Source: Paramecium tetraurelia
Taxonomy: Eukaryota > Ciliophora > Oligohymenophorea > Peniculida > Parameciidae
Direction of reading: 5' to 3'
Assembly: GCF_000165425.1 (NCBI RefSeq)
Contig: NW_001799111.1
Location: 133,779 to 197,778 of the forward strand
DNA: 64,000 nt
A program made the translations under genes and the position numbers. Below the pieces are notes generated by a model that was not told the DNA's origin, made no database searches, and saw only the letters and a list, made by a program, of their open reading frames with translations. This document shows positions 6,209 through 59,032 of the stretch, piece after piece; position 1 is the first letter of the stretch; each line of letters starts with the position of its first letter.

Positions 6209-6221
6209 TATTATTTTATTT

Positions 6222-7452
6222 ATGAAGATACTTTTTGTAATAATCGATGGGGTTGCTGATGTTGGTACTCCTGAGACTTAATTTAAAACCCCCCTTCGAA
6301 TTGGCTTAAATACCAACTATGAATCAAATTGCCTCAACTGGACTTGCTGGCTTGATGGATCCAGTCGAACCAGGGCTATCTTGTGGAAGTGACACAGCTC
6401 ACATGAGCATTTTTGGTTATGATCCATTTACATTTTACAGAGGCAGAGGAGCATTTGAAACAATGGGCTCTGGAATTGATATGGAAGTAGGAGACATAGC
6501 ATTCAAATGTAATTTCGCATATATCGAAAATGGAATTGTGAAATTAAGAAGAGTAGACAGAGAATTCCCTGAATGGGGTCTTCCTTTGATTGATGCTCTC
6601 AACACTCAACTAAAGACTCCCATTTAAATACAAGCAAATCACGCAACAGAACATCGAATTGGATTGAAAGTAGTGTCAAATCATTATTCGGGTGAATTGT
6701 CAGATGAAATCATAGGCACTGATCCACTCAAAGATAATCTACCCTTGAGATAAGCTAAACCAAAAGTACAATGCGAAAAGGCTATCAGGACTGCCAAAAT
6801 TATAAATGAACTATCCGATTCCATACATTAAATGCTATCTGAACATCCTATTAATATACAAAGATAATAGTAAGGACTACCCACAGCTAACATTGTACTC
6901 TTGAGAGGATGTGGATAAAGAATTAAAGTTCAAAGCTTCTAAGAGAAGTATGGTTGGAAGGGGGCAGTCATTGCTCCTACAGCCATTATCTAAGGATTAG
7001 GAAAGACCATTGGTTTGGAATGGCATCATGTTGAGGGTGCTACAGGAGACTATAATAGCAATTTCATTAACAAAGCAAAAAAAGCAAGTGAATTATTAGA
7101 AAATGATTATGACTTTGTATTCTTACACATCAAAGCAGTTGATGATGCAGGACATGACAAAAATAAAGATCTCAAAATTAAGTATATATAGAAGGTGGAT
7201 GAAATGCTTAATTATTTTGTGGATAACACTAAACTGCAAGATGCTGTGATAGCTGTTACTGGTGATCATACTACTCCATATGCTTATGGAGATCACACTT
7301 TTTAGAGTGTTCCATTTATCGTTAGCAAATTGAGTTTATTGAATGGAAAGAAGAATGATGTTTAATTTAATGAGATTTCATGTTTAAAAGGGTCTTTGGG
7401 TAGATTTTGTGGAAAATAAGTGATGTAAATTATAAAATAGTATAGTTCATGA
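6222..7452 (+). CDS. apgM: Archaeal-type cofactor-independent phosphoglycerate mutase, one-base frame break
   Basis: An alkaline-phosphatase-superfamily enzyme of the ApgM type, which interconverts 3- and 2-phosphoglycerate in glycolysis using two metal ions. Visible: N-terminal IIDG (residues 7-10) with the metal-binding Asp, GSDTAHMSIFGYDP with the presumed catalytic Ser, GRGAFETMGSG, DDAGHDKN and TGDHTTP. These match family landmarks in order. The frame beginning at ATG 6222 and the frame used from about 6300 differ by one base. The break falls on a run of six C at 6289-6294; with five C the family sequence continues smoothly (..KTPFELAQIPTM). No GT..AG intron of suitable length can bridge it. 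So it is either an assembly error or an inactivating insertion. About 409 residues if joined. Confidence 0.88.
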
Positions 7453-7485
7453 TTATAATTAAATAAATATAAAATATTTTCTGTT

Positions 7486-8209
7486 ATGAGTTTATTTGAA
7501 GAAGTTAACAACCTTTTAGACACAGAAAAAGATAAAATGGCACATGAGTAATATATTTAATATCCTTAAGTACTTATAATTCATTACTTGACTTATAAAG
7601 GGAAAACTATGGGTTCTATGAAATTAATGAAGTATTCTTCGGCAACACCCATTCAAATTTAGACAAATACCTTAAAAAGATTAAGGAAACAATAGCTAAA
7701 AATACTAGGAATATTGAGAATTTTAAGAATGCTTATGACTTTGGAAGTATGCTTAGTGTTAAGGAAAAATTCAAATTGTTGAGCATTGATAAATTTTACA
7801 AGGGCTAAAACAAATTGCCAAAATGGTTTGATGAATATAAAATGGAATAATTAGAGAGGGCAAGGGAATACATTAATAATTTTGCTTTGCGTTCCTATAA
7901 AAATAGAGTTAATGAGACAGTAATGGCTGAAAGGAAACGACTCGAAAAAAAAGTACTTAATTTGATTGATGAAATTCATACTTCTTATACTGTAGAACTT
8001 AAATTGGAACCACCCATTTTAAAAATTTAAGAGTTACAACATTGTAAATAATGTAATTTTACATATTAGTACTTGAGGAAATGCAAGAATATGATCGCAT
8101 AATATCTGAATTAGTTATAGTTGTTATGCATAAGGTGGATGAGGCATGCGCTTAGATAGTCAGAAACTTCCTTGAATTTCAGTCAAAATGTGAAACACTA
8201 TTTAAATGA
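7486..8209 (+). CDS. Hypothetical protein, partly coiled coil (224 aa)
   Basis: ATG at 7486 to TGA at 8207-8209 with two introns, 7548-7570 and 8044-8069, leaving 675 coding bases. The protein is hydrophilic and mostly helical in appearance: a Lys/Asn-rich first half with KLPKWFDEYKMEQLERAREYI, then a basic helix KNRVNETVMAERKRLEKKVLNLIDEI, and a Cys-containing C-terminal helix (CAQIVRNFLEFQSKC). No known domain is recognised and there is no signal peptide or membrane segment. It lies between the PGM and WD-repeat genes on the same strand, with 33 and 46 bases of spacing. The gene structure is well supported; the function is unknown. Confidence 0.7.
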
Positions 8210-8255
8210 ATTCATTTCATAAATTTATAATAACCAAATTTTTACTTGAAAATTT

Positions 8256-9383
8256 ATGGACGAAGAAAAACCAGGTTTTTTTGAGTAGTTAAGATAACTC
8301 TATCAGAACAGGGAGAAAATAGAGTCCAAGATTGTGGGATTTCATATGCAAAAACAATTTAAGATTTCTCACCTCTATGGCAATGAAGAGCAAATAAATT
8401 GCATGGACTTAATTGACATTTCTGAGACTGAATCATTTATTATAGTATGTTCTGATGCTAAAATCAAATTATATTCACACACTACCAAATTAGATAAATT
8501 ATTTGAGTTTGTCATTCAATTTGAAGCCAATGAACATCTTGATTATGATGGACTGAAAAATGAGAAACAAAAAAAGTTTCTAAGACATTCTAAACAACTA
8601 ACAACAGGATCTGTTAAAGAACTCATAATGTTCTGCCATTTCGCATACATTCATGATCAATTATATGTATTTGCAGGTGGAGACCTAGGATATGTCTACC
8701 AAATTGAAATCAAAGAAAATCCTGAATATTTCTTACTTGAAGGACATCACAATGTGATCACAGGATTAGCTAGTAACAACAAAGGAGCATTTTCATCATC
8801 TAAAGATGGTTCAATTATTTAGTGGGATGTCACTAATAGATAAATTGTTTAAGTGCTTAGAGATGGAGATACGCCAGAAGCAGAAGTCTTGTGTGTTTCA
8901 GCTAATTAAGAACATGTGATTGGAGCATACTCTGATGGGAAATTGAAGTTGTGGACAATCTAGGATTATAAAAATGATAGTTGGACTTATAAAATTAATA
9001 AATCGCCTACTATCATATTTTAAGGTCCGTTGTAAGATATTTATCCTCATATAACTTAAATATTCTTATTAAAATAAACTATTGTAACAAAACATCTAAA
9101 TGGTATTTTGAATTACTTTGTGTTCGATTTGTAAGGCAGAACCATATCACTTAGAGATTGGGAGATGTCAAATGAGAATTATTGGGAAAGCATAGATGTG
9201 AAATTTCCATACCTGATCTATACTTGTTTTAATCGTATGCAAGTGATAACCCTTAAAAAAAACAAACTCACTTATGAAGCTGAATTAGATGTTTTGCCAT
9301 CTAGCAAACTGACAATATCCAAAATATCAAATAGATTGATTGTTATTGGAAGGATGAATTAATACACAATTTTATAATAATGA
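8256..9383 (+). CDS. WD40-repeat beta-propeller protein (375 aa)
   Basis: One intronless frame, ATG 8256 to TGA 9381-9383. The N-terminus (MDEEKPGFFEQLRQLYQ) is a short helix. The body shows degenerate WD repeats: LYVFAGGDLGYVYQIE, then FLLEGHHNVITGLA...SKDGSIIQWDV, then HVIGAYSDGKLKLWTI. GH and WD dipeptides are at the right spacing in at least two repeats, and weaker strands fill the rest. Such propellers act as protein-interaction scaffolds in many complexes, so the fold is clear but the partner is not. It is short for a seven-bladed propeller plus N-terminal helix, so one or two blades may be very divergent. Confidence 0.82.
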
Positions 9384-9662
9384 TATATATGTATATTCAT
9401 TGCAAGATTATTATCTATTAGTATTTTAAATAAATTTGTTCTTTAATATCAACTCATAAAGCAATTCCAAAAATTAATTCATTCTAATGGCGTTTTTAAA
9501 TAATTAATATTAAAATAGCTAAATTTTGGATTATTATCATGGTGATTAACTAAATGAAAAATGCGTCATTTAGTATTAATTTATTACATAATGCGCATGA
9601 AAATAGGCATTAATTAACCAAATTCTTTAAATTCATGATCTAATTTATTAAATATCCAGCAA

Positions 9663-10656
9663 ATGCACTCCCAACATGTTAAGTTAAGTGATGACCCAGA
9701 ACTATCTGCAGTATGTTCAGCCCTCCTTCTTGCCTTCATAGAGAATTCTCGTGTTTTAAGATATTGTTCCGGAGGTGGAGACTACACAAACACTCAAAAT
9801 GATTTTGGAGATCATTAATTAGAAATGGATGTTTAATGCGAATTAAATGTTAACACAGAATTGAAGAAGACAGGCTTCGTCAGTCATTCAGCAAGTGAGG
9901 AAACACCAGAAGTACAATTATCAATTAATCCATTTTTAGATGAAGCTTCTATCTGAAGGTGGAAAGTTCATAGTCACATTTGACCCATTGGATGGAAGTT
10001 CAATTATCGGAACCAACTTTGCAGTCGGAACAATTGTGGCCATATGGAAATCTGATGAAAATCTATTGATCGGAAAGAGAGGAAGAGACATGGTATCAGC
10101 CTGCTGCTGTCTCTATGGTAGTCGTACTAATGTTGTCTTCTGGAATGAAAAAGAATAAAAAATTTAAGAATACACATTGTTTGGTATCATAATAATTTTA
10201 TCATTAGATGGAGACAAATAAGGTCATTGGGAATTGACAAAGGATAACATCAAGATTAAGCCAAAAGGTAAATTGTTCAGTCCAGGAAATACAAGATGCA
10301 TTGTCGATCATATCCCCTATAGAGAAGTTGTTGATTATTGGATTCACAATGGCTATACTCTTAGATACTCTGGTGGCATGGCTCCAGATATTTGCTAAAT
10401 CTTCCTAAAAGAAGTTGGCGTCTTCTCATGTTTTGGAGATGCAAAAAATCCATCTAAACTCAGATATCTTTATGAGTGCGCTCCACTCTCCTTCTTAATC
10501 GAGAAGGCTGAAGGAAAATCATTTAATGGTAAACATTCAGTTTTAGACACTGAAATTACAGGATATCAACAAAAAAGTGAAATTATTGTTGGAAGTGCAG
10601 ATGAAATCGAATTTTTCAAATCAATCTGGAAGAAGCATGGTATTTTAAAGGAATGA
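9663..10656 (+). CDS. Sedoheptulose-1,7-bisphosphatase / fructose-bisphosphatase family (313 aa)
   Basis: A metal-dependent sugar bisphosphatase. The active-site block GGKFIVTFDPLDGSSI and the following TNFAVGTI are clear. GKLFSPGN and YTLRYSGGMAPD are closer to the sedoheptulose enzyme than to ordinary fructose-1,6-bisphosphatase. APLSFLIEKAEGKS is the usual C-terminal metal or substrate segment. Introns at 9912-9939 and 10184-10207 leave 942 coding bases. The second intron is 24 bases with no in-frame TGA, so an unspliced product would just carry eight extra residues. The start follows an in-frame TGA at 9636-9638, and no plastid or mitochondrial leader is obvious, so it is probably cytosolic. 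In a non-photosynthetic cell it would act in the pentose phosphate or related sugar pathways. Substrate specificity is inferred. Confidence 0.9.
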
Positions 10657-10984
10657 TGATGTAATATATATAAAATTTTATTATAAATTTATTTTTAAGG
10701 ATAAATAATCATTATTTGTATTAATTTTTATAAAAATGTTTAATATATAATAATTATAATTCATTATTTTCATTAATCAAACTTAAATGTTCTATTAAAT
10801 AATAAATATTTGAGAAATCTCAGAATAAAATTAGATAAAGAAAATTGATTTTATATTTTCTTATTTCCAGAATTTTTAGAAAATAAAATTACGATAACCA
10901 AAAAATTAATTCTGAATCATAAATTTATAAAATTGTCAAACATTAATTAGTATAATCATACTCCTCATATAAATAGAAATTATC
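10657..10984. other. AT-rich intergenic stretch between convergent genes
   Basis: This stretch separates the stop of the bisphosphatase gene (+) from the stop of the giant coiled-coil gene (-). It is long for this window. I see only AT-rich sequence with short T and A runs, no protein-like frame, no RNA gene and no repeat. Confidence 0.5.
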
Positions 10985-13900
10985 TCAATGATTCTAATAA
11001 TTGATGGCCAATTCATCTAGTTTAGGAACTTTCTTAGTTTATTCATAAACCATTTCTCTTAACTTATCATTCAATCCTTAGATTTACAGCTATTATAATT
11101 TGATTTTATGAGCATAATCTTTTTCCATATCTAATAATAGTTGATGCAAATGAGTATTTTCATTTTGTAGTTGTTTTACTTTAAATTCTAAAGGGGAAGA
11201 ATTCTTAGAATCATCAAAAAATGTTACCTCTTAGACAAATGATGATTGTATATTATTTTACTAAGACAATTAGGATATAACCTGTTCCTATCTGGATATT
11301 TCTTATTTAAGATAATGTATTGTATTTTATTAATTTGCTAATTATTCTTATTATTATTAAATTTGATCGTTGATTATTCTCTTTTCATCATGAATTTATT
11401 TTTATTATTATAAACTGGCGTCTAGTTTGGTCTATACTTTTTTGAGTTATTATTATAGATTGCTATCTGATTAATTCTTAAATTCCTAAACCTATTTTTA
11501 TAATCTATCAACCTATAGTTTAAATTAAATATTTTCATTTTTGTGTTTTTCAGAACTTTCTTGAATTTATCTACTCTCTCTCTAAAATCTTTGTAACTCT
11601 TATTCTTTCTCTTCTTTTAATATATTGTTACTATTTGACATTTATAACAATCGCTAATATAATCTTTAAGCCTCTTGCTTTAGCTGCGTATATTCCTCTT
11701 AATTTTATATGTATATGAGTTTTTGTTCTTCTATTAAATCTTATTATTTTTGTAATACAGATTATAGATTAGATATATCCTGTTTTAATGTACTATTTTC
11801 TTAATTAAGTTGGTTAAATTTTTCCCCTTGCAACTAATTTTCTACTATTTAATTATTCAATCTTGTAATCTCTTCCAAATGTTGTTTCTATTCTTAATCA
11901 ATGTAATTTTATAAGTCTTAAATCTACTGTGATTATTCTTCAATTTAAAGTTCTTACTTATATATTTTATCATTTAATTGTTCAAAATGAATTAATTTGA
12001 TTATTTTAAATTCATTTTTATTATTAATTTGCTAATACTCCTTCGTTATACTGTCAAGTGCAGATCCTTATTTGTAATACTCATCCTGTAATTATATTAA
12101 CAGGTGTTAGTATTAATTTGCTTTCTAATTTAACTTATCATTCTCAACCATTAATTCTTTATATTGCTCTTCATAATTAGTCTAAATAGAACTATTTTCT
12201 TTTTGTTTAACATTTTCTTATTTTTTCAAGGTCTAATTTTACAACTGAATTGATGCAGCTATACTGTTAGTATCACCTAATAATTACTTAATCTTTTCAG
12301 TAATCTAAACAATTTATGAATTAAGCTATATATGATCCCCTATGCTTATAATTAATGCTTAAATTATTTATGATATTTCATCTACCTTTTAGTTATGCTA
12401 ATTTTATGGAAACTTTTACTCATTACTTTTTTTAATTTTATCTTCATCTTTTTTTTATATCCTGAGTTATTAAACATAAATAGCTTGTTGTTTTAATTTC
12501 TGGATCTAATTCTATAAATCTTGTTTTGTTTTCTGAATCCTAAAGTTCAAATCATCAAATTCCTCTAATTTAACCAAAGCCGCAGAAATTTTACTACTCA
12601 AATCCCAAATTTTGTTTTATTCAATATAAAACTTATTTTATTTTACTTAATCTTATTCCTCATTTTTATTATTTTAAGTTATAATTTGAGATTATTGTAT
12701 TTGTTGAAACTGGGTTTCTTGCACTTAATTTTAATAATTAAAGATCTTTTCTAACCTATTTTTCTCCTCTGTCATATAGAATAGAGCATCTTTCAGTTTT
12801 TGGCATTCTTAAATTAAAGTTTAATTCTCTTATTTCAATTTTGTAATATCAAATGAAAGTGATTCATTTTAATTTTTATAAGTTTTTTATTCATTATAAA
12901 TGAACCCTTCCTTTTAATTTGAAGAATATTCAATAATATTATATTGTCTCATATTTTTTTGTAATTATTCAATATCATTCTGTTATTTGAATATTTAATT
13001 CTACAATTATAAATTTTCTTCTTGCATTTATTTGATATGTCCATCTAAAATAGTTTTATTCTAAATAATAATTTTTTTTTCTCGTTATTCAAACTATATT
13101 TAACTTTATAAATAATTTATATCTCTTTATTGAATAAAAAATTATGAGTTTAGATCATCAATTTGTTTTCGTAATTTGTTAATTTAATCATTTTAACAGC
13201 CTTCAAAATCCTCTATGTCTAATTTTAAATTTTGTCTTAGCTTTTGTAAATCAATTTGATTTTGATGATTTTCTTATTCCAAAATAATGATTTGTTATTG
13301 TTATTAATTAAGCAAATGAGTTTAGTTGGTATATTGTTTTTATAATTATAAGTGTAGCAATTATTTTGTTTCAAAATCTTTGACTTGCTCTTAATAATTT
13401 TAATTTTAATTAGTCAGTTCAGTAATTTATTATTTAAGTTGATTTAACTCTAATTCAAATGATTAAACCAACCTTTCTTTTTGTTATTGCAATAGCTATT
13501 ACTAATTTGATAATTAAAATATCTGTTCTTTTAAATCATTTGCTTTACCTTAAGATAGTTGATTTTGAGAACCTTGAAATTACTTTTCAAGTTGAATTAT
13601 TTTAATATTTGCTTATTCTTTTAATACTTTTTCTGTTGATAATTGTTTTTCTAATAGCGCAATTTTTGAGGATAAAACAGTATTTTAAGCCGATATTTAT
13701 ACTTCGCTATTTTATTGCATTTAAGATAACTAATTTTAAAGAAATGAGTTAAGTTATTTCATATCTTCTATTTAAAAGTTTAAATTCTAAATGACATCCA
13801 TATTTTATATTTATTCACTATTTTGATTACAATCTTTTTATTTTTACATTTAATCAAGTTACTCTTTTAATGATAAATATTTGATCTAAATCATTTTTAA

Positions 13901-16978: not shown

Positions 16979-17079
16979 AAATAAAAATTATTTTAAGAAT
17001 TTTTATTCAGAAATAAAATTAGTGAAATGGAAATTATGAATTCTTTATTAAAGTATTCTTGTATTTGGTTATCGTATAT

Positions 17080-31632: not shown

Positions 31633-31654
31633 TATAATTTTAATTTATATTATT

Positions 31655-32700
31655 ATGCATAAATTCGTGACTCCAGAAACATTTGTACACAAAGTTGAGA
31701 ATGATTATTTCATCAAGAAGAAGCACAGTCCTGATTTAAAAACGCAGGAAAAGAAATAAAATGAATTGAATTTTGAACTCTACCAAAACCTTAAAGATTT
31801 GAGAAACAATAATTAATTAATACAGAATAAACAAGGCTCACTTAAAATCATCAACCCTTTGAATAAGTAAATCAACATGATGGAAACCAAAAAATAGCAG
31901 CAAGAGAAGAAAATGAGGGATACCCAATTCGAATTGAAAAAAAAGAGTATGCTAAATGAAAATCAATAAAATTTACAATCTGACTTAAAGAATTTAGACA
32001 AAATAAGTGTTAGCGCCTTTAAAGATTTTAAAGAACAAGTTAATCTTTATAATAAATATTATAGCAACAGCATTGGATAGGAACCAGAAATCAGTGACAT
32101 TCAGTATGAGGACTTAAACATTCCTTATCAATTTGTAGACAATGGAAGTAGATATGCTTACAGAGAAAAATTAAATCATGAAATACCAGAAATTAATTAT
32201 TAGAATAACCAAGCATAAACCATAATTGAGTAAATTGTATCCTACTATAAAATCTTAGAACCATTCCCTAATTGAAATTCTCGGATGAACAATTGGAGAA
32301 CAAATTGCTAAACAGATTAAAATAACATATTGTGGTAAGACAGTTAGATTAAATGGAAAATGATTATTTGATTGCAATAAGAAATAACGATTTATCAGGG
32401 CTAAAACTGATGTTGATTTCAGATGAAACTTTCATTCAGACAAAGGATTTTGTAATATTACGATAATATTGTAGATAGGGTAAACAGGCTTGCATTTGGC
32501 TGTCAAACGCAACTACTATGATATATGTTAAGAGCTGATAAATCATTAGGTTGACGTCTTTGCAATTGATTATGTAAATTCAAAGTCTATAATAGGGAAA
32601 CAGAACAGGTAGGTAAATGGCAGAGAAGTACAATTATTTTAAGGTGGCGAAGTTAATACAGATGGAGGAGGATTAGATCAGGAGAAATTTATAATCATGA
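31655..32700 (+). CDS. Ankyrin-repeat protein (323 aa)
   Basis: ATG 31655 to TGA 32698-32700 with introns 32230-32258, 32452-32474 and 32574-32595; 972 coding bases. Residues 1-200 are Lys/Gln/Asn-rich and partly coiled coil. After LKFSDEQLENKLLNRL the C-terminal part holds ankyrin repeats: MENDYLIAIRNNDLSGLKLML, then DFIGQTGLHLAVKRNYYDICQELI, then VDVFAIDYGNRTGRQMAEKYNYFKVAKLI. The GQTGLHLA turn is diagnostic. Without the three introns the frame breaks in the middle of this domain, which supports them strongly. Ankyrin repeats are protein-binding modules; the partner is unknown. Short for the class, with about three repeats at the extreme C-terminus. Confidence 0.85.
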
Positions 32701-35967: not shown

Positions 35968-37763
35968 ATGTATTCTCTTATTTTTTTAGTCTACATTTTT
36001 CTCCAAGTGGCATCCCATCGATAGACATCTCCTACTAGTAGAATCATTAAAGAAGTGATTAATGAAGAACAATATTCTACTAATGTCAATTCCTCTTTCT
36101 TAATTCAATTTGCAAAGTATGTATTAAAATCATTAGTTACTTTGACATTATTGATATATCATTATCGTCCTTAAATTAAGATAATTTTATTAAAGTAACT
36201 AAAGATGATCCATAAACTTCTCATTTAAGTCATGGATGTCGACCTTATGATAGAGAAATATTGTATAAAAAATTATTTCATTTCATTCCATTATTTGATA
36301 ATGAGACTATAGAAACTATCCAAGGGAACATTAGTTCACTTTACTCATCTACTTAGAATATATTTATAGTAAGAAGCGATCTCAAATTGATCATAATGAA
36401 ATTGTTATATGACTAAGAGTTATAAGAGATTATCGATTTGTAAGACGTATAACATATAAACTTAAATTCTGTTCTAACTAAATAGTCTGGAACTTAGTAA
36501 ATATTAGATCCTGTAATCAAATGTTATGAATATAACATTTAGTTTGTATATTGTTATGTGTTGACATAACTAGGTACAATACATTTTTAATATAACTAAG
36601 ATGAGTAAATTATGTTAACATATGAAGAAATAAAATTTTGATTGTTAAAAAAGTGACAGTAGAATTAAGTTCTAAAGTGTTGGATGTCTATTTAGAGAAT
36701 AAAAATAGAATGCTATTAGTTTTGAGCTAAGGAGAAGTTTAAGTGTTTTAATCGCTTCTTGATGGAAGTTTAACTTTAATTTAAAAATTGACACCAATTC
36801 AAGAAGCAAATTTGCTGCAAGTTAAGACTAATGAAAATGGAACGCACATCTTTATTCTTGATTAACAATATGGCATTTATATATATTAAATTGATAAATC
36901 GGATGGTGAAATAACTCTGAGTGAACAGAACATTTAGATTAAAGGGGGCAGAGCATTTGATATTTCTGGAAATAGAATGTTTATTCTGTTGGAAACTGAG
37001 GATGAGCTTCCATATGTTTTAGAGTTGTTTTATGATTTAGAGAAGAGAGAACATTATTTGAATAAGATTACATCGTATGAGTAAGAGGTATACGATTTGT
37101 ATGTGAGTGAGAAATTAACCATTTTAATAGGGAATGATGTGCACTCAATAATTGAAAACTCTATTTATCATAGGTTTTATGAAAAGGAAAGTGAAAAAGA
37201 GTAATACTTCAATCAAGTTGACTTAATTTAGGTGGATAGCTTGAATTTGCCTTGGGGTAACTAAATAAAACTGGGTTATCCATTTGAAAGTGGTCTCTTC
37301 TCTTCTATGAAGTTATTGTATGATGAAACATATATGGTGTCCATTTCAGGGAAGGAAGTTAACGTATTTGTATTGAATTCTGTATCTCCTTGGGTTTTAT
37401 GCATGGCTGAGAATACTACAAAAGAAGTATGAAATGCTTAGAATGTAGTTTTATTAATTGAGATTGAAGGCATAGAAATGTCCATCCATGAACTATGAAA
37501 ATGAGAATCCTTTCATTATATGTGAATCCAGTAGAAATTTTAGTTTCTAGGGGTTGGAAATATATTTTTATGAAGACAATTCGAAATTATTCTTGGCCAT
37601 AATCTTAGGTGTAATATTAACAATAATTGGGTTATCGATTGTGTTGATGTTTTATAAAAATAGATATTAATAACTCAATATTTAAGAGGAGTATGGAAGC
37701 GTTGAGATAACATAACAGCAGGAAAATGAACTGAAAACAGAAAATCTGCCAACAATAGTATGA
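35968..37763 (+). CDS. Type I membrane protein with beta-rich ectodomain (576 aa)
   Basis: ATG 35968 to TGA 37761-37763 with introns 36117-36136, 36605-36627 and 37427-37448; 1731 coding bases. The start MYSLIFLVYIFLQVAS is a clear signal peptide. The ~500-residue ectodomain is built of repeated short hydrophobic strands and turns (VLDVYLENKNRMLLVLSQGEVQVF, GTHIFILDQQYGIYIY, GRAFDISGNRMFILLE), suggesting a beta-propeller. A single membrane segment LFLAIILGVILTIIGLSIVLMF is followed by a ~40-residue polar cytoplasmic tail. A few Cys (KCPSMNY..FIICESS) lie near the membrane. Similar architectures occur in ciliate surface proteins, but no named family is recognised. Placed between an unassigned gap and the channel gene. 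Confidence 0.75.
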
Positions 37764-37806
37764 ATTGATAGTATTAAAATGAGTTTTATATATATAAATC
37801 AAATTA

Positions 37807-38712
37807 ATGTCAGAAGAGAGGCTCTTACAAGAAGAAACTCTTTACTCACATGGCCAATAGTATTCGTAATAGAAGTAGAACTAAGGGAATGTAGACGAGC
37901 ATTAATTTGAAGTTTAGGAAAACGAGAAGGATGAATTATTAAAGAAATTAGAAGCGTTAGAATCTAAATTGAAAAATACCATAGACGACAAGCCTTATAG
38001 TGAATTGATGAGGATATTAATATGGGAAGCATTGGGAACTGCATTTTTTGCTTATGGGATAGTGTGTTCAAGAGGAAATGATGTCATGTTAAGTGTATAT
38101 CTGTTTGGAGCAATATTTTTGATCGGTAAGATTACAGGAGGCCATGTGAATCCTGCGGTTTCGATGTCATTTTATAGTTCGAATGAGATAAGTGCATTTA
38201 CGATGAGAGTCTATTGGGCAGCTCAAGTGGGTGGGGCAATTGCAGGAGCTTTGGCTGCTTTTGTGATAGTAGGAAGAGTCACCTCTCCATACATTGAGAC
38301 ACAGCCAATTCAATGGATGGTGGCTGATTTTTGCGGAGAAGTACATTATATCTTGTGATCCATTAAGGCTTTGGGTACATTTGTATTTTGTTTGTTTATT
38401 CATATTCAAGTGCACCCACAAACGTAATTAACTGAAAACAACTTGATAGGGATTGGCATTATAGCAACTGCACTCTATTTTGGTAGAATATTGACATTTC
38501 ATACTGGAGGTATCTTTAATTTTTCTATGTACATAGGTTGTTTGAATCCAGCGATGGGAGTTGGATTAGGTATCTTCGAGTCACTATAGGATGGTAATTG
38601 GGATCGATTGATTAATATTTGGATCTATATCTTTGGACCTCTTTCAGGAGCCTCTTTGGCTTCGGAGTTTTACAGAAGCGTTTATGTAGGTTTATTGCCT
38701 AAGAAAAAATGA
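37807..38712 (+). CDS. Aquaporin / major intrinsic protein channel (283 aa)
   Basis: Introns 38341-38367 and 38510-38536 (both 27 bases) leave 852 bases. After a ~60-residue acidic cytoplasmic N-terminus come the MIP hallmarks: helix 1 ILIWEALGTAFFAYGIV, first half-helix GGHVNPAVS, helix 3 WAAQVGGAIAGALAAFV, helix 4 EALGTFVFCLFIHIQ, second half-helix GCLNPAMGVGLG, helix 6 IWIYIFGPLSGASLA. Both NPA boxes are intact. In the selectivity region no Arg follows the second NPA directly (MGVG), so water selectivity is uncertain. The channel would pass water or small neutral solutes such as glycerol. The first intron carries an in-frame TGA; the second has none. Confidence 0.92.
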
Positions 38713-38732
38713 ATATTAAATTTAATATATAC

Positions 38733-41700
38733 ATGAAGATAATCTTAGGCCTTTTAGCCATCCTCTATGGGTTAGGTTAATGCAATATTATTGAAACTTC
38801 AAGACCTTGTACTTGCCAATAACTATCTCAAAATGATTGCATAAAAAATAATTCTTGTGCTTGGAATAAAACATGCGATGTCAAAACTATAACTTAATCC
38901 AAACCAAATACTTATTGTAGCTACTTAAATGAAGCGTAATGTCAATTAGACGACGTCTGTTAGTGGGTCAGCAGCCAATGTACCTTTTTTACAGGGTGCA
39001 CTGCTTATAAATTTACAACTGATAGGGACTGTAGAAGCATGAATAAGAGATGCTATAAATCCGATCTTAAAAAATGTATTGAGTTAAGTGAATGTATCGA
39101 TTACACAGATTAAATTGTGTGTTTTATGGATGTAAATAATAGATATTGTTATTGGGATACAAAACTCAATAAATGTTCCAAGGCTATGGATTGCCCATCT
39201 TAACCGTCTGCTTTGGATACTGATGCCTAATGCAGATCCTAAATTCCTACTTGCACAACCAAACCAGGTGGTGGGTGCATTGACGCATAATCGAGTTGTT
39301 CTGACATCACTCTTGAAATCTAATGTTTCTATAATAAAGACCAATCTGCATAATGTTTTTGGGATAGTTCTCTCAATCCTCCTTAGTGTAAAGTAAAGAC
39401 CTGTGAAAATGCTCCAGTGACTTTGAAAACAGAAGATCAATGCAAATAATTTTTAGAATAATGTACAACTCAAAAGGATGGTGGTTGTGTATTAAGATCA
39501 TCTTGTGATGCTGCAAACACATAAAACGCATGCATTAAAGATTATTACGGAAATGATTGTTTTTGGGTGGATGGCTATTGCAAATAAAAACTGTGTAGCA
39601 ATGCCACCAAAGATATTGTTACTAATGTCGGTTGTTAAGCAATTAGTGCAAATTGTATAACCAAATCTGGTGGTGGTTGTATGACCAATGGGGAATGCTC
39701 AATTGCTAATGTGGATTACGCATGCAAAAAGAACTTAAGGGGAGAACAATGCTTTTGGGATTCCATCACTCAATCATGCAAAGATAGAACTTGTAGCAAT
39801 GCCCCTTAAAGTCTATCAACATTCGAATAATGTAGTAAATTTTTATCTACTTGCACTGTTAACTCACTTAAATAAGGATGTGAAAATAGAACTTGTGAAA
39901 ATGCACCCGTATTTGTCACTACTCTGATTGGATGTCAAGAATACCATAATGTATCTTGTATTCCCAAAAAGGATGGTGGATGTGTTACTATCAATACATG
40001 TGAAGAAGTTCAGTTAGAAATTGGTTGTATCGTCGATAATTTGTAACGTCCTTGTTTTTGGAATGATGGTAAATGCTTACTAAAAGTATGTACCAATATT
40101 CCTAAAACTGTCTACGACCAAGAATCATAAAGTTAACAACCTGTCACTCTCGACCATTCCAAATGTAATGAGTTTATGTAAACTTGCACAATCAATTAAT
40201 TAGCTACGAATTGCATTAATTACACATGTGACAATGTTTAAGATTATAACATATGTCTCTAAAACCAAAAGTGTTATTATCGTTCAACATGCTTCACCAA
40301 AACATGTTTCACTGCTCCTTTATCATATACTACTCATTAATAATGTTCTCAATATAAGAACGTATGTACTATTGCTCCATCAGGATAAGGATGTTCTCTT
40401 ATGTTATAAGCATGCAACCTATATAAAATTAAGACACAATGTGTTTAATCAGCTACTAGTGCTTGTGAATGGCAAGGGAATACTTGTGTTGTGAGATAAT
40501 GTAATTTAGCTGATACTTCATATAATACAACTTAAAAATGTCAGTCGTATCTATCTGGATGTGTAGTCAATAATTAAGAAAAAGGATGCACTCCTGAATT
40601 TACAAGATGTGAGGATAGTCAGATTCAATAGAACTGTACTTTGGATGTATGCGAATGGAAAAATAATAAATGTGTTACTAAATCATGTAGTAACCAAAAG
40701 ACTAATTGCACATCATATAAAACTCCTAAGAAGTGTATCAATAATGATTCCAAAAATTTATGTATAGATGTTCCAGCCACCTGTACATTATTACCAAAGG
40801 AATATTGCTAAGAAAATATCTCTTATGACTTGATTAGTAAATATTGCTATTTGGATGGTAGTAATGCTTGTACAGAACTTACACTATAAAATGAGTGTAG
40901 TAGTTACACTTATTAGATTTCATGCATTAAAAGGATCAACAATAAAGGTAATTGTGTTTGGGTTAGTGGAATTTGTTATAATGATGACTGTGCTGCTTTG
41001 CCAAATACTTATACTACATCTTCATAGTGTAAACTAGCAATTTCAAGGTGTATCTTAAACAACACAGGCTCAGGATGTATGAATAAAGATGAATGCTCAT
41101 CTTATAATGATAAAAATTGTGATTAATTAGATAGAAATGGTTAAGACTGTGTTTATAAGAATAGTCAATGTCAAAGGAAGTCTTGTGCAACAAGTTCTGA
41201 TACTAGTCATATTGATTGCTATAAATACATGTCAACAGGACTAAAATGCACTGTAAATAATAACAGTAATGGCTGTGTTGAATTGACATCATGTACTAAT
41301 TATAAAAAAGAATCATAATGCGTTATAAGTAACACTCAAAAGGATTGCTATTGGTCTAATAATAATTGTTATGAGAAGAGCTGTTCTTTGAATACTACTT
41401 CAACAACCCATGATTAATGTTAATCATTCATGAGCAGTTGCACTCTAAATACAAATACAAATCTGGGATGTATGGAATTTCCTGAATGTTAATTGATTTC
41501 AGATCCATCAATATGTAGTTCCAGTTCTAAATGTGTCTATCTTTCTACCAATTGCATTGTAAAGACTTGTGAAAATGCAGTATTAACTGAATATAATAAT
41601 AAAAATTGTAGCGATTTGCCTTTTGAGGGCTGTTCTTATGATAGTAACTTTTGTAGCACAAAGACATGCTCATAATATGAATTCAGTACTGATGAAGAAT

Positions 41701-45886: not shown

Positions 45887-47678
45887 TCAATTGTTGCAAT
45901 AAATAATCAAGTACTTTTTTTAATTAGTTATTTTGGATGTTGTAAATTAGTCAAGTTTACAATACTTTGATCCCATATGAGTTTTTGCTAATTACATATA
46001 AAATTAGTTTACTTCAGCTATTTATTCTTTTTGAAGACTACAAAATTTTGTAAAATGCTGTGAGAATTCTGATACTGTATTCTCAAATAACTTTGTTACC
46101 TCCAAATATGATTAATTATTAAAGTAAGCAAAAATATTTTTTAAATCTTCTTAAATTATGGTCTCTTATGGTAACATAATTTAAAAACTAAATTCTTTAT
46201 TCTAAGTCAAGTTGCTATCTTAAAAGGCTTTAAGTTCAACAGCTGAAATTTCCCATCTGCTATAATCCTAAGATGTAAATAGTTTATTCTTTTTATATTC
46301 TAATCGAGACTTGAATTTTTCATACTCCTATTAAGCATGTTCTTTCTATTTCATAAACTAAAATAAGAGGATTAATTTACTTCTTTTAATACCAAAACTG
46401 AATGATGATGGAATTTAAAAAAGTGACACAATTCCTCCTAAACAATCTAGATTTGAGATGTTAAATTATTTCCCCACTAAACAAGCATGTTGTTCATTGA
46501 TATATACAATATATCTAATTATGATATCTTACCTTAAGAAATGGATTAATTAAATTTATTTGATAATTGATAGAGTTCTGCGCAGGTTGATCCCATATTA
46601 AAAATAGTATTTGATAGTTAATCAAAATCAAGCAATAATTGCTTAGAGTCCTTTCTTAATTTTTTATAACAGATATCAACAGAATTAACCAATTAAGTTG
46701 CTTCTAAATTGTAAGTATTTAAGTTGTCATTTATTTCTAATTAAATTTTACCATCAATAGAAATAATCTATTCTAGTTTAGTTACTTTTTGAACTTAAGT
46801 ACTCAATTTTTAAATTTACTTCAAATCTTTTTCTTCTTTGGATGATAGAAAAGCATAAAACCATTTATCATGCCTTAGTAATTCACAATTAAATATTGAT
46901 TTTAGGAATTTCTAATTTGATTTGAAATAATTACTTCTAAAAATTTCATACGCTTTTGAAGATATAATTCTTTCTCGTTCTTCAGAACGGTCTTTTTTGG
47001 TAGAGGAGGAATCTAATCTAATATTAAATTATACATTAATGCCAGGATAAATTTTGCAAAATAATTCCCTTAACCATAAGAAATCACTATATCTTCGCTA
47101 TACAATCCAACCTATTGGATCTGTTTATACAGTATAAGAATAATATGAAGATGTGAAAATACCTCCAGGAATTCTTTAATATTTGGTTATTTAGACATTT
47201 ATTCCACTTTATAAAAATAGATCTTTTTTGTCTTGAGTTTTGCATAAATGGATTTTAGAAAAGTTTGATTTGACATCGCTAATCTCTTTGATCAGTTCAT
47301 TCTAAAGCTAAGATTATGATTGCTCTTTCATTAAGCTCTAGGATGTTGAATTTAAATTTTATTCATTTTATTCTACATTTTACAAGTTTTTCTCATCAAC
47401 ATCCGATGATTTACCAAAACCTACATTTTGCATCTATTAATCTTATTATGGTTAATTTATCTATTAAAATTAAGCAATTGCTAAAGATAATTCTTGATAT
47501 GTCCACATGTCGATGTCTTATCCACCTAATCGTAAATTTATGTTTGGAGTGTACCGTTCTCTTTCTATTATTCCATGTAACTAATAAATGCTTCACTATC
47601 ATATCCTTTATCAAGTATTTCTGCTTTTAATAGCTTTTCCTTTTATTGTACTTCATCACAATTGTTTTATTAATCCAT
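45887..47678 (-). CDS. PX-domain sorting nexin, SNX-BAR-like (about 560 aa)
   Basis: ATG 47678 to TGA 45887-45889. Introns 47526-47554, 47013-47034, 46912-46934 and 46358-46380 restore one frame; a fifth, 46515-46532, would be only 18 bases and leaves the frame unchanged. The N-terminal module (EKLLKAEILDKGYDSEAFISYMEQQKENG then DIDMWTYQELSLAIAQF) is a helical motif common in ciliate trafficking proteins. The PX domain follows: YYSYTVQTDPIGWIVQRRYSDFLWLR and IPPLPKK, with the phosphoinositide-binding RRYSDF. The C-terminal ~250 residues are helical and BAR-like. The family binds PI3P and curves endosomal membranes for retrieval. It fits with the adjacent FYVE/RUN gene in endosomal traffic. 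Confidence 0.87.
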
Positions 47679-47693
47679 TAATAATATTTAATA

Positions 47694-48080
47694 ATGGAAT
47701 ATTATACAGATATTCAAAATGAGCTAAAACAAAAATATAATCAGCACTATAATCTATATTAGGTATAATAACTTTTTAATCATTAGAAATAATAATTGGA
47801 ACGCAAGATACTTTGCTATAAAAATAATAGTGAAGACCCTCTTAAGTATCAACAATGCATTGAAGATTTGAATACAAGAATGAATATGAATTCCACTACA
47901 CTTAGAAATAGATTCAATCAAATAGAAATAGATGATAAAGATTGTTAAGGTAAATGCTATGATGACTCTAAATGCATTTAACGATGTGAAGAATAATCAA
48001 GAAAAAAAGCAATTTAATTATAAGAATAATTTTATAAATTAATGTTATAAGAAAATCCAGAATACAAAAAATTGTAATGA
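47694..48080 (+). CDS. Small Cys-containing coiled-coil protein (128 aa)
   Basis: One frame, ATG 47694 to TGA 48078-48080, no intron. It is mostly hydrophilic helix (MEYYTDIQNELKQKYNQH..). In the second half is a compact Cys cluster DCQGKCYDDSKCIQRCEEQ (C-x3-C-x5-C-x3-C), with two more Cys near the middle. Twin C-x3-C motifs recall small mitochondrial intermembrane-space proteins, but the 5-residue spacing is shorter than the 11-16 usual for small TIMs, so I do not assign it. Its ATG is 15 bases from that of the sorting nexin on the other strand. Confidence 0.68.
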
Positions 48081-50805: not shown

Positions 50806-50908
50806 TTATCTATATTTTATATTATATTAATAATTCAATAAGTTTGAAGCAATTAACATCAAAATTCAATTTAGAGATTATGTTTTGAATAATATATATA
50901 TTTATTAA

Positions 50909-52670: not shown

Positions 52671-52699
52671 AAGTTAAAATAAAAAAATACATAATTCTC

Positions 52700-52969: not shown

Positions 52970-53237
52970 TCCTATTATTTATTGTTGTATTTTAGTTTTC
53001 GAATATTTTGTTCTTATTTTAGAATCCAGAATGATTATTTCTAATATATAATTTATATTTATTATTATATTTAATAATACGTAATTGTACTTAATATGTT
53101 TACGCAATAATCAGTTGAATTTGCCATATATTTATTTATAGAAATTAGTAATATGATTTATAAGATTAATAAATAGTGACGTATGAAATGCTGCTAATAC
53201 CTAAATTGATTGTCGAATTAATACTTTAAAAAATTAA

Positions 53238-54249: not shown

Positions 54250-54306
54250 AATCTGTGAATAATTTCATTGTTTATATTATACTCAATTCAAAAGAAAGTT
54301 ATGAAT

Positions 54307-54546
54307 TCAGTTTACAAACATCTTGTCCTAGTCGATATCATCAAGTTTTTCTTTGGATTTATTCATTCTCCTAAGTATGATAGGATTTTTGGAAATTTAA
54401 TAAGGGACCTTTCCTCTTCTAATTTCGTTGAATTCAGCCAATGAGCCCACACTCTTTAGATATTGCTCAAAGTTGTCGTTTGTTGTTTTAGTACTATTAA
54501 TAGAAGTAGAGCAGGATAATTTTTTCTTATTTATCGAACATCCCAT
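54307..54546 (-). CDS. Small MGC-start protein (79 aa), possibly N-myristoylated
   Basis: An 80-codon frame from ATG 54546 to TGA 54307-54309. It starts MGCSINKKKLSCST: Gly2, Cys3, Ser6-like spacing and downstream Lys residues match an N-myristoylation plus palmitoylation signal. The rest is a polar helix (NFEQYLKSVGSLAEFNEIRRGK..) and a basic/acidic tail. No domain is recognised. If real, it would be a small membrane-tethered adaptor. Short length limits confidence, but composition and the clean N-terminal signal favour a gene. Confidence 0.55.
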
Positions 54547-54761
54547 TTATTAATATAAAGTATGTAATTTAATTTTAAACATTCATTGATTAATAATATA
54601 AAAACATTTATTTCGATTTAAACATAATTACTTGAATTTAATTATCAACATTTTTCTAATATATATATAATATTATGATAATAACTTAAATAGTATTATT
54701 TAAAAGCAAAAAAGGTAAGGAATTTCTAAAATAAAGCCAAAATTGATTTTATTGATATTAT

Positions 54762-56118
54762 TCATTCAAAGGCAGGATCACAGAACAGAACTGTAGGCAA
54801 TTTAGGTGCTTAAGAACAGTTCTAATAATATTTGATTTATAATAAGAATTCAGTAAATGGGTTTATTAGATCTTTATATAACCTATAACTAACATGATCC
54901 ATTTCATCTGCTAAATGCATGATGCATTAACTTGCCTAGCAATTTTCTAATTTATATGTAAGAAAATACTGTATAATTCCTGTGCCTAAGTATATGGAAT
55001 GATGTTGTCAGCTTTACCATGTAGAATAAAGGTAGGGATCTTAACTTTTTTAATTTGATCTAAATTGTCAAATCTCTATCTGATAAGATATTAGGCCCAT
55101 GATCCTACATAATCTCTGACAGCTGCTTTTAATGATGTAAATGGAGACATCAAAGCTAGACAGGCCGGCTTGTATTTACTAGCAAGATAGGTGGCAGGTC
55201 CACTACCTATGCTTCGACCAAAAATAATGATACGATTTTCATTATAACCCAATCTTTTGGTAAGATAATTGTAAACGTATTCAGCATCTTTCAATATGAA
55301 TTCTGCATTAGGCTATTCGTTTTTGTACTTACCATATCCTGGGTATTCCATGGCTATGGCTGATACCTAGGGCTAATTATGGTATAAGTACTTGTAAGTT
55401 GTCTCTGAGATGAATAAGGAACTTATATGATTAAGTTATATCTTCGCAATTGGCATGGAAATACATTACAATGTTGGGAGAATGAATTTTTGAATCTACG
55501 TACATGCATGGGATATGTCCGAAGATATGATGCGATTCTCTGGAGTTGGATCTTTGAGGGATGGGTTCATCTTCTAACAATTTTTCTTTCTTTTTATCCA
55601 TTAATTCTTTGGGTAATTTAATGAGAGGTTGACTGAAACAGATGCTTTTTTCGTATTTGGTTTTTTTGATTGGATAAAAATTGGATGACATCCTACACAA
55701 TTAAGGCTTTTTGGTTGTAATTTAAATGGATTGCATGTTTAATTTTTACAATTTGGACGAAACATCAGGACTTCCCTCGTTAGAATCAAATGAGGGGGAA
55801 TTAATTTCACTAGTTTATCTTCTTCTCTACCTCTAAGTAAGAGGTTTGCAAGGAAAATTAGGGATGGGTTATAATTGAGATTCGCTATTGGAGTTGAATA
55901 AATAAAGATTACGTGGGTTCTTCATTAAAGAAATGTTCATCTTCAAATTCCAATTCGCTCTACTTAAAGTACATTCCTCTTTTTTTTGTTGTTCTGGGGA
56001 CGTAATTTTAGAAGGTTGGATAGAGTTTTTTGTACTTAGGAATCCATAATATTTGTCCTTGTTCATGCTCATTGGATATTTGTTTTGGAGCAGGGAAAAA
56101 AATGAAGTCTAGGTCCAT
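54762..56118 (-). CDS. ABHD17-type alpha/beta hydrolase (426 aa)
   Basis: Introns 55885-55912, 55367-55391 and 54947-54969 leave 1281 bases. The N-terminus MDLDFIFFPAPKQ and WIPKY match the usual start of this group. A ~150-residue disordered insertion follows, then the hydrolase core: IVMYFHANCEDI (oxyanion strand), AIAMEYPGYGKY, the nucleophile elbow IIIFGRSIGSGPATYLAS with Ser in GRSIG, SPFTSLKAAVRD, the acid strand FILHGKADNIIP, and the His in DEMDHVSY. Relatives remove palmitate from membrane proteins. A second ATG at 56072 opens another long frame (MSMNKDKYYG), but only the 56118 start plus the 28-base intron gives the family N-terminus. Its ATG is 21 bases from that of the next gene on the other strand. 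Confidence 0.9.
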
Positions 56119-56139
56119 TAATTAATATTATTGTAATTA

Positions 56140-56797
56140 ATGAATAAAGAGAGTGAGAAATAATTAAATGAAAAAGGAGCAACCAAACAATTGCAAAAGA
56201 TAATTGGAGTAAGAACACACATCATTATTATAAGTCTAGGCCCATGCCCAATTACATAATGTTTGATGGGGAAGGCAATTATGGGAGAAAGTAACTGTAA
56301 GGTAATTTTACAAAAACGAAGACTTAGATCACAAGAATTTGAAAGTGTAAATAAATTTGCATTGGAAAGGGGAGGAGAATGTTGAGGAGTAGAATAAGAA
56401 TTGTGAAACTGAAAATAAGCAAATCTTACCCAAAATTTTGAATTTAAAAGTTATTTTTATGTATTATCTAATAAGAAGTCCTAAGATGTTGAACCAATGA
56501 AGACAACAATCAGTATAGGTAGTTTAATATTTGAGAATTTAAGAACATCAAAAGAGATTTGGTAAATACAGTCTGAGGTATTTACAAAAAACAAACCCAT
56601 TTGGCAACAAGGATGGTTTGCAGGATGATAAATTTGAAGTAAGCTCAGCGAGATATGGGAAATTCTATACAAATGAGAGCGACCATAAAAATTTATTACG
56701 GGAATTTGATAATAAATACTGCGTCATCCCTGTCTAATAACCTATATTAAAGTATCATAGTTTGAAATCATCATTATTCAATAATAAAAATTAATGA
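56140..56797 (+). CDS. Hypothetical protein (186 aa)
   Basis: ATG 56140 to TGA 56795-56797. Four introns (56209-56234, 56302-56321, 56450-56475, 56519-56543) leave 561 bases and join pieces that otherwise hit TGA. The protein is polar: KQLQKIIGSRPMPNYIMFDGEGNYGRKQLQ, then an acidic stretch and EHQKRFGKYSLRYLQKTNPFGNKDGLQDD, ending KYCVIPVQQPILKYHSLKS. No family is recognised and no membrane segment is seen. Its stop overlaps the ATG of the next gene (ATGA at 56794-56797), an arrangement that is rare in eukaryotes. Confidence 0.68.
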
Positions 56798-57648
56798 GAG
56801 GATTTATAATACGCTTTGCATTCGCTGAATAAGTCTCCATACAATCTCAGACTTATTTAAAAAGATCATACAAGGAAGCCACTGTGGAAATGGCCATAAA
56901 CCCAATCAACCCATATCACCAATGGTTCATCAAAGTAATCTTAAATTTTATATTTTTAGCTTGATGGCAAAAGTGCAAAGACTCAGCAACGCAACATCTT
57001 GGCAGTCCCTTCTCCATAATTGGCTGCCTGCATTGCATCAGAATTCAATCGACAGAAGGAATACTTGAGTTTCAAGCAAATGCCTCTTTTAATGCTCGCT
57101 AGAAATGCTATTGATTTAGATTACGATGCAACCAATAGAGAATACATCGAAAAAGCTATTGTTAACCATTTAGAAAATGATGTTATTCTACATCGTAAAA
57201 ACTAAAAGTCGTAACTTCTCCAAATTCAGTAACAATAATTGGATCCACAATTGAGATTCTTCAATTCTAAATTCGGAATGGACATTTAATCAAATGATGG
57301 AGTTCAGATTGGATCACTTAGCCAACAAAATATAGTCAAAATTGAATCCTTAATCAGAGGATTGAATAATTGGTAATTAGTCAGTCTCAGTTCTCAAGCA
57401 GGTATAAAATTAATATTATATTATTAGATAATCTAAAATCTTGTATATTGGCTATCCAACTATCCTATGGTCAAGTTGATTTAGAGAAAGCCTTGTCTCT
57501 ATGCGATATTGAAAATTAATTTAATAAGAAAGTCATTGAAAATGAGAATCCACAAGAATCGGATAGTGAAGATAACATAATTTCCATGAATGTAAAAGCT
57601 GCCCAACTCTTCTCATCGCTAATTTATTCCTAAAGTATCCTCTATTGA
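56794..57648 (+). CDS. atp12: ATP12-type F1-ATPase assembly chaperone (267 aa)
   Basis: Introns 56935-56959 and 57402-57427 leave 804 bases. Visible family pieces in order: RSYKEATVE near the start, then LDGKSAKTQQRNILAVPSPQLAACIASEFNRQ, the core KQMPLLMLARNAIDLDYDATNREYIEKAIVNHLENDVILHRKN, LDPQLRFFNSKFGMDI, and LVSLSSQADNLKSCILAIQL. ATP12 chaperones the alpha subunit while the mitochondrial F1 sector is assembled. The first ~20 residues (MRGFIIRFAFAEQVS) are a plausible mitochondrial presequence, which supports this start. It begins inside the stop codon of the preceding gene. The next in-frame Met lies after conserved residues, so a later start is unlikely. Confidence 0.88.
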
Positions 57649-57731
57649 TATTTCTGTTTATTGTATATAGAATGAAATAATTTCATTAAGATTTTTAATT
57701 ACACAAATAAATAAATGTCAACTAAAATCAA

Positions 57732-58483
57732 TCAGGACTTAAAGGCTTTCGGCTAGAATGTAGATATTGATTATGAAACTCTTGTTAAGATTTCTGTATG
57801 TGTCTTCCTATCTACTCTCGCAACCGGTGAGGGACCAGGAACTTACTTAAGTGGGAGACTTTTCCTTAGATCCACTTTAGGCTAAGGCTTATATTGAGGT
57901 TCTCTTTAAATGTCAAACGGAGTCAGGTCTGGTCCCAAGTTGCTTGTGATGCATCCATATAACATTCTACGCTCACAACAATTAATTACGTTTCATAATC
58001 GAGTAATTACAGTAAGAACCCTGGGTTTGGCCTTACATATGGTCTTTTTTATTTTAGAAATCTTAATGCTTGTTCTACTGTATATTGATAGCTTTTCATG
58101 AGATAGGCCAGTACAAGGGTAGCTGATCTCGAGATGCCTGCTGCACAATGAACAAGAACATTTTATTAAGATTTCAATGCTTTTTCGATGAATAAGAAAG
58201 ATCTTTCGAAAACATTACTGATTTGAGAATTCATATTGTCATGAATGTCCAAGTAAATTTATTTGTATTTAGGACCCATCATGATTTCTATGTATTGAAA
58301 CTTATTACTTTCTTCTGTGCAGATGGACAAAATGCAATTTACGTTATTGATTTCCAAAATTTATTAATTATGTAAGCAATCCAAATTTCCAAGAAATAAC
58401 TTTCCTCTTTCTTTCTCTGACAACACTAAACTAATTGGTTACTCTCCAGGTAAGGTGTATTTAAGCATATGCAAACCCTTCAT
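57732..58483 (-). CDS. Dual-specificity protein phosphatase (242 aa)
   Basis: ATG 58483 to TGA 57732-57734 with one intron (57967-57989), 729 coding bases. The catalytic loop [19 protein letters not shown] is the DSP signature (HCxxGxSRS), with the nucleophilic Cys and the phosphate-binding Arg. The general acid Asp lies in YLDIHDNM. Upstream, [19 protein letters not shown] begins the domain, and [35 protein letters not shown] ends it, as in MAPK phosphatases and small atypical DSPs. The C-terminal ~70 residues are Pro/Gln-rich and unstructured. A plus-strand frame starting at 57718 is the complement of this tail and is a shadow. Confidence 0.93.
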
Positions 58484-58617
58484 TATAAATAAAATTTATT
58501 TAATTATTTGAATGCATTTCACTACAATAAAATATAATCATAAGTATATTTATGTTAATATCCACAATACTATTGAAGGAAAGGAATCAAAACATATATT
58601 ATTTTTTATCTTTTAAA

Positions 58618-59021
58618 TCAATTTTGACCGTCTTATAAGTCCTTCTAGATGCAATAGCACAACCCTAATTTATCGCATATGACACCTTCGCAATTCAATA
58701 CGAAACCCTTGCAACAAGGACAATCTTTATATTTTTCTAATAAATCCATCATCTAATCCGGGTCCTCAGGATCGATATCGAAGAATAGCTGATTATATTA
58801 TGGCAATTCAATACTTCTTTTTGTTTTTGAAGCACATTAATTTCATATTCTTCAATTTGTTTATCAGTAAGCTCCTTTGGAATCTATTATTATTCCTGTG
58901 GTTTACTACAGAATGGGCAATTTTAGATGCCATGAAGATGATAAAAATTGAGTTTGAATTCGATACAATCAGGAGATGGCTTAATTTGAGGTTCTTGCTA
59001 AATTTCCTCTTATTATGACAT
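58618..59021 (-). CDS. Small Cys-rich, probably zinc-binding protein (125 aa)
   Basis: ATG 59021 to TGA 58618-58620 with one 26-base intron (58789-58814); 378 bases. Cys pairs occur as CPFC, then CPCC, CEGVIC and CYC, enough for one or two zinc sites. The first part is Gln/Glu/Pro-rich (MSQQEEIQQEPQIKPS) with LNFYHLHGIQNCPFC. The middle is a charged helix with KELTDKQIEEYEINVLQ. No named family is recognised. The start is only 11 bases from that of the divergent gene at 59033, the tightest pair in the window. Confidence 0.72.
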
Positions 59022-59032
59022 TAAATTAATAA

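Follow-up and report, generated by a model that had tools for sequence, protein, structure and literature searches.

The 64,000-nucleotide stretch of Paramecium tetraurelia DNA analyzed here (contig NW_001799111.1, positions 133,779 to 197,778; hereafter the window) belongs to a genome of 69.07 Mb in 231 contigs and carries five pairs of back-to-back genes whose start codons are separated by 13, 22, 15, 21 and 11 bp. These distances, already reported in a preliminary description of the same sequence, were borne out to the base by direct reading: the CAT of the left start ends at 6208, 31632, 47678, 56118 and 59021, and the ATG of the right start begins at 6222, 31655, 47694, 56140 and 59033, respectively. 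All five are adjacent genes on opposite strands with close, outward-facing starts, the head-to-head arrangement (start sites within 1 kb) that is one of the traits by which bidirectional promoter pairs are recognized. Four of the gaps are 100% A+T and that of pair 4 contains one G. The dinucleotide AG is absent on either strand from all five gaps; therefore, none of them holds a splice acceptor. The window has a GC content of 27.9%, long reading frames emerge when TGA is taken as the sole stop codon, and introns measure about 25 nucleotides (nt). A tRNA scan run with the bacterial code found no tRNAs.

Coordinates of the five gaps and ten genes in the window (bp, base pairs; aa, amino acids; labels beginning with L or C designate sequences elsewhere in the genome)
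Feature	Coordinates	Strand	Basis and remarks
Pair 1, left gene, 855 aa, 4 exons	3573..6208	-	gene finder; start conserved in L022, related start in L023
Pair 1, gap	6209..6221		13 bp, all A/T; 13 bp in L022 (12/13 identical), 10 bp in the more diverged L023
Pair 1, right gene, 2,3-bisphosphoglycerate-independent phosphoglycerate mutase	6222..7452	+	Pfam PF10143, PF01676
Pair 2, left gene, 318 aa	30676..31632	-	gene finder; paralogue in L027 with similar N-terminus
Pair 2, gap	31633..31654		22 bp, all A/T; 21/22 identical in L024
Pair 2, right gene, 323 aa, 4 exons, ankyrin repeats	31655..32700	+	gene finder, Pfam; start conserved in L024
Pair 3, left gene, 549 aa, PX domain	45907..47678	-	gene finder, Pfam; start conserved in L037
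Pair 3, gap	47679..47693		15 bp, all A/T; 14 bp in duplicate L037
Pair 3, right gene, 120 aa, 2 exons	47694..48080	+	gene finder; duplicate at C192:122731 aligned from residue 1
Pair 4, left gene, 426 aa, alpha/beta hydrolase	54762..56118	-	gene finder, Pfam; N-terminus and start conserved in L029, L030
Pair 4, gap	56119..56139		21 bp, one G; not preserved in the more diverged L029, L030
Pair 4, right gene, small, five predicted exons, end uncertain	56140..56731	+	gene finder; weak paralogues
Pair 5, left gene, 125 aa	58618..59021	-	gene finder; duplicate at C192:134201(-) aligned from residue 1
Pair 5, gap	59022..59032		11 bp, all A/T; 12 bp in duplicate L036
Pair 5, right gene, 157 aa, single exon	59033..59506	+	gene finder; duplicate at C192:134214(+) aligned from residue 1

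The starts were checked with a self-trained gene finder that used no annotation and was trained on the window and four 50-kb stretches, later with a further 40 kb. It predicted 177 genes and 387 introns in 304 kb. The commonest intron lengths were 23, 25 and 26 nt (68, 70 and 66 introns), with fewer introns of 24 and 27 nt (30 and 29), in agreement with the deficit of introns of 3n length described in Paramecium (PMC5485702). When the window was held out of training, nine of the ten starts were recovered, and seven of the ten when the start-context score was switched off. The start at 6222 was missed because the reading frame of the mutase gene breaks after about 70 bp, at a run of six C. When any one of the nine recovered starts was forbidden, the cost was 3.1-16 nats, and the alternative parse always began at a downstream ATG, never upstream. 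The start at 56140 is the least certain of the ten, since its removal costs 3.7 nats, no duplicate covering it was found and its gene model is likely merged with that of an ATP12 gene. Pair 2 was checked mainly on its right side and pair 4 on its left. The earlier claim that all ten frames are independently supported is therefore nearly right, the exceptions being the frame change behind 6222 and the weakness of 56140. A sixth pair in the window (35954/35968, 13 bp) was seen in one training round, was gone after retraining and was dropped.

In the DNA searches for duplicates, 56,000 of the 64,000 window bases were covered. C192 is collinear with the window and 86-87% identical at best; judging from identity, it would stem from the most recent whole-genome duplication, and the matches of 65-83% on C155, C189, C204 and others would be older copies. 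Both starts are present in the duplicates of pair 1 (gaps of 13 and 13 bp in the window and the copy), pair 3 (15 and 14 bp) and pair 5 (11 and 12 bp). The gene finder placed the starts at 4355/4369 in L022 and at 1488/1501 in L036, an earlier training round having set the right start of L022 at 4394. Moreover, the gaps of pairs 3 and 5 differ by 1 bp between copies, which speaks against their being coding sequence. On comparison of these copies, the starts of pairs 1, 3 and 5 appear firmly established. The left start of pair 4 is retained in two older copies (L029 and L030), the right gene being adjacent in neither.

The duplicate of pair 2 (L024, around 1520-1552) keeps the right start and 21 of the 22 gap letters; no left gene is predicted there, and no protein-level search was made for that gene. 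A paralogue of the left gene lies on C187 (L027), with a similar N-terminus and a predicted start four residues further out. In an older copy of pair 1 (L023, on C204), about 30 bp around 1330-1350 resemble the mutase start (CAT, 10 bp, ATG) and adjoin the start of the left gene; the remainder of the mutase was found there neither by DNA alignment nor by the gene finder, and no protein-level search was made for it. A further divergent pair, present in L026 (2321/2344, on C215) and L027 (2511/2534, on C187), has a 22-bp gap that is identical at 22 of 22 positions and sits in a near-perfectly identical block including the first codons of both genes. At the right start of this pair, L027 carries one additional ATG triplet.

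Among the genes themselves, the left gene of pair 1 has a coiled-coil look, as judged by eye, and no Pfam family above the cut-off in its first 566 residues, the part that was searched. PF01676 (Metalloenzyme) matches the mutase from residue 1 of the frame opened at 6222, in a query made of the two frame pieces joined by X. The shift of this frame lies near 6290; in the mutase duplicate of L022, a 22-nt intron-like insert is found just 5′ of the frame-change site, and the copy is locally scrambled where the window copy is CGSDTAHMSIFG. The break may be an assembly error, or it may be a real lesion in decaying copies. The Pfam search returned no family for the left genes of pairs 2 and 5 and none above the cut-off for the right genes of pairs 3 and 5. 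More diverged paralogues of the right gene of pair 3 are present on C211 and C2, and the right gene of pair 4 has weak paralogues in C108 (E=1e-5) and C121 (E=7e-4). The latter gene was predicted as part of an eight-exon model (56140-57648, + strand) that probably joins two genes, a small one and an ATP12 chaperone gene whose ATG is at 56794; the approximately 45 bp upstream of this ATG resemble, by eye, the equivalent place in L029.

The 304-kb sample, which includes the window, contains 41 predicted divergent pairs, seven of them with gaps of 25 bp or less (eight when 13 bp is taken for pair 1). In the sample beyond the window, the proportion is 3 of 32 (95% interval 2-25%) and ranges from 3/32 to 5/34 across six gene-finder settings. 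The window, chosen after the fact, is enriched in such pairs (5/9 with pair 1 as 13 bp; Fisher p=0.007). Short divergent gaps are thus a regular minority in this genome. By extrapolation, about 200 to 2,500 such pairs would be expected genome-wide, with about one quarter of neighbours divergent; 36,000-40,000 protein-coding genes are reported in each of three aurelia species (PMC5485702). Divergent genes of the sample lie 437 bp apart on average, in keeping with means of 388, 410 and 501 bp published from v2 annotations (PMC5485702). At the genome scale, all-A/T CAT-ATG spacings of 13 and 19 bp are in excess, with ratios of 2.31 and 4.24 compared to 1.77 for the phase-matched 4-bp spacing (z=3.2 and 4.5); the ratio is also raised (2.37) for CAT-W(k)-ATG at k=8, which belongs to another codon phase, so this excess lends weak support. 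Among the titles listed in literature searches on start spacing, intergenic DNA and bidirectional promoters in Paramecium, none concerned short ATG-to-ATG gaps, which is not proof of their absence from print.

These gaps have to be compared with the leaders of Paramecium mRNAs. Cap-Seq gave P. tetraurelia 5′ untranslated regions (UTRs) whose median length is 19 nt and mean length 21.7 nt (n=10,087; PMC5485702), and intergenic regions are described as “extremely small” and “sometimes simply absent” in a genus whose macronucleus is 800n (PMC12716044). A 19-nt leader in a gap of 11-22 bp would place its start site from 3 bp inside the gap to 8 bp inside the opposite gene, and two such leaders would overlap by 16-27 nt. 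It had been argued that gaps this small cannot hold two ordinary promoters and 5′ UTRs. Indeed, these cannot lie side by side and must be shared or extend into the coding DNA of the opposite gene, but the spacing is not abnormal, since overlapping leaders fit the median length. The proposed choice between a shared bidirectional site and starts inside the opposite gene stands to the same extent, although the sequence does not choose between one site and two overlapping ones. By contrast, “nearly leaderless” mRNAs do not follow: a start inside the opposite gene gives a leader no shorter than the gap, and such a length is close to normal for Paramecium. Leaders of 11-22 nt or more are compatible with the gaps and a 5′ UTR of a few nucleotides is not required.

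Overall, we consider it likely that one AT-rich start module of about 20 bp serves both directions in these pairs, which would be ordinary divergent pairs of a compact macronuclear genome. Each gene would need only such a short module upstream of its ATG, containing the leader and probably the initiation site, and a single module of 11-22 bp would do duty for both genes when they stand back to back. RNA polymerase II (Pol II) would start each way within the gap or up to about 10 bp into the first codons of the other gene, the 5′ ends of the two mRNAs would meet or overlap, and additional contacts of the promoter would sit in the coding DNA of the opposite gene. With hundreds of gene copies (800n), mutually exclusive firing of a shared module would presumably be harmless. 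The likelihoods given for this reading and for its rivals are not mutually exclusive.

The exact gaps, the paired starts kept in the duplicates of pairs 1, 3 and 5, the 22/22 identity of the L026/L027 gap and the 21 of 22 letters kept in L024 beside no predicted partner all favor a shared module, as do the published leader length and small intergenic regions. The roughly 20 nt that immediately precede the ATG are AT-rich at these starts, as expected of short-leader genes of the Paramecium type: predicted starts have 5-15% GC over -20 to -1 in four gene classes, whether the upstream gap is short or long. Identity between duplicates over these 20 bp is 150/158 (95%) in eight short-gap starts and 74/80 (93%) in four control genes, compared to 139/160 (87%) and 62/78 (79%), respectively, over -40 to -21. 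These counts leave out pair 4, for which no close duplicate was found, and a fifth control gene (59780) with no counterpart in L036; in the L026/L027 pair, where L027 has two adjacent ATGs, the second was taken as the start. The right start of pair 2, whose partner was not found in the copy, is identical at 19 of 20 upstream positions. The start module thus looks alike in short-gap and control genes. Furthermore, the gaps of pairs 1, 2, 3 and 5 are identical at 56 of 60 positions, two single-base indels being set aside, compared to 2481/3386 (73%) for third codon positions (p=0.0002) and 390/471 (83%) for introns (p=0.04).

Several points weigh against this reading. The AT-richness of -20 to -1 is partly built in, as the gene finder scores AT-rich start contexts. 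The 150/158 positions are not independent, because the eight starts form four pairs in which each gap is counted twice, and in gaps below 20 bp a part of the upstream 20 bp is coding DNA of the other gene. The identity of the gaps does not differ significantly from that of other aligned intergenic DNA (681/795, 86%; p=0.12). Over the first 21 codons, short-gap genes show no higher conservation of third positions (77/101) than other genes do (77/99), and codons 2-6 of short-gap genes are not above those of control genes (52/60; p=0.28). Lastly, an additive model with independent upstream spaces, whose outcome depends on the assumed 3′ space, expects 5.0, 4.3 or 1.5 gaps of 25 bp or less compared to the seven observed (p=0.23, 0.13 and 0.0008); with the limit raised to 50 bp (12 gaps observed), p is 0.08, 0.03 and <0.001 under the same three assumptions. 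Since the model fits under two of the three assumptions at 25 bp, shared modules are not statistically required.

Instead of one module, two separate directional promoters could overlap, each lying mostly inside the N-terminal coding sequence of the opposite gene, with the gap as leader DNA alone. We regard this as unlikely, even if leaders of about 19 nt place the start sites near or past the far edge of the gap and a review states that regulatory capacity seems shifted into gene bodies (PMC12716044). Codons 2-6 of short-gap genes are also more conserved (111/120) than codons 22-41 (401/475; p=0.026), but the third positions of the first 21 codons are not raised, and the right gene of pair 2 is kept in L024 although its left gene was not found there. 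Taken together, the opposite coding sequence appears to carry no clear sign of promoter constraint, with a hint in codons 2-6 alone.

Chance is somewhat less probable still: dense genes and AT-rich spacers would put some divergent pairs this close to each other without any shared element. The additive expectation of 4.3-5.0 pairs under two of three assumptions agrees with it, as do the further short-gap pairs of the sample outside the window. However, the spacing survives duplication in three pairs and in L026/L027, although shared descent alone preserves spacing for a while, and the genome-wide excess of 13- and 19-bp spacings, tempered by the ratio at k=8, also argues against coincidence. 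Finally, it is very improbable that some starts are misassigned, the true ones being the next downstream ATG or an in-frame ATG inside the opposite gene (with a larger spacing or overlapping genes): with TGA as sole stop, frames stay open far upstream and in-frame ATGs precede eight of the ten starts, the cost of removing any recovered start is modest, 56140 lacks a duplicate and the L027 paralogue starts four residues off, but the alternative parses never move upstream, the duplicates of pairs 1, 3 and 5 hold the same ATGs on both sides, their 1-bp gap changes (pairs 3 and 5) interrupt continuous reading and the Metalloenzyme match begins at residue 1 for 6222.

The sole unexpected hint of this work came from the distribution of gap lengths. 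In a comparison made after the data were seen, gaps of 51-160 bp separate 3 of the 41 divergent pairs, compared to 30 of 89 tandem pairs (p=0.001) and 11 of 41 convergent pairs (p=0.04). Across six gene-finder settings, the divergent count varies from 4 to 8 and five of the six stay at p<0.011; with the start-context score off, the scarcity loses significance (8/41 vs 28/91; p=0.21). It is conceivable, if doubtful, that divergent genes follow two discrete designs with few cases between them: a fused start of 11-46 bp, with a single two-way AT-rich module partly written into the first codons of both genes, or separate starts more than about 160 bp apart. If so, the sparse range, which corresponds to about one nucleosome, would imply that the two genes of a pair use either a single open start in common or two starts that require a nucleosome between them.

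If an AT-rich stretch of 11-22 bp drives two genes, it comes close to the smallest promoter space of eukaryotes. Homology searches hardly reveal the usual general transcription factors in Paramecium (PMC12716044), and this organism would then be well suited to studying the minimal requirements of Pol II. The copies left by whole-genome duplications, some of them seemingly without one partner, would provide natural deletion tests.

Very short leaders and tightly packed starts are known from other compact genomes. Like P. tetraurelia, the diplomonad Giardia lamblia combines a compact genome with 5′ UTRs mostly below 20 nt and an AT-rich initiator, and some of its adjacent genes start both ways at the same nucleotide (PMC3792122). 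It is unrelated to ciliates, and its start sites were measured, whereas the pairs of the window were read from sequence. The authors of that study considered that apparent bidirectional transcription may correspond to nearby unidirectional events, which matches the explanation by separate promoters discussed above (PMC3792122). Encephalitozoon cuniculi is likewise gene-dense, with very short leaders in its intracellular stage and transcripts often initiating in upstream genes; it differs in being a microsporidian and not a ciliate, and overlap was reported for its extracellular spore stage (PMC3629993). The closest comparison is with P. tetraurelia itself, for which a median 5′ UTR of 19 nt, rare alternative starts and overlapping UTRs are mentioned and the mean ATG-to-ATG distance is 388 nt, compared to 121 nt in P. 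caudatum (PMC5485702). The available part of that report gives means and not the short tail of these distances, and does not trace pairs through duplication. The five pairs are consistent with the short leaders and close packing of genes that earlier work described in Paramecium, as a product of ordinary genome compaction.

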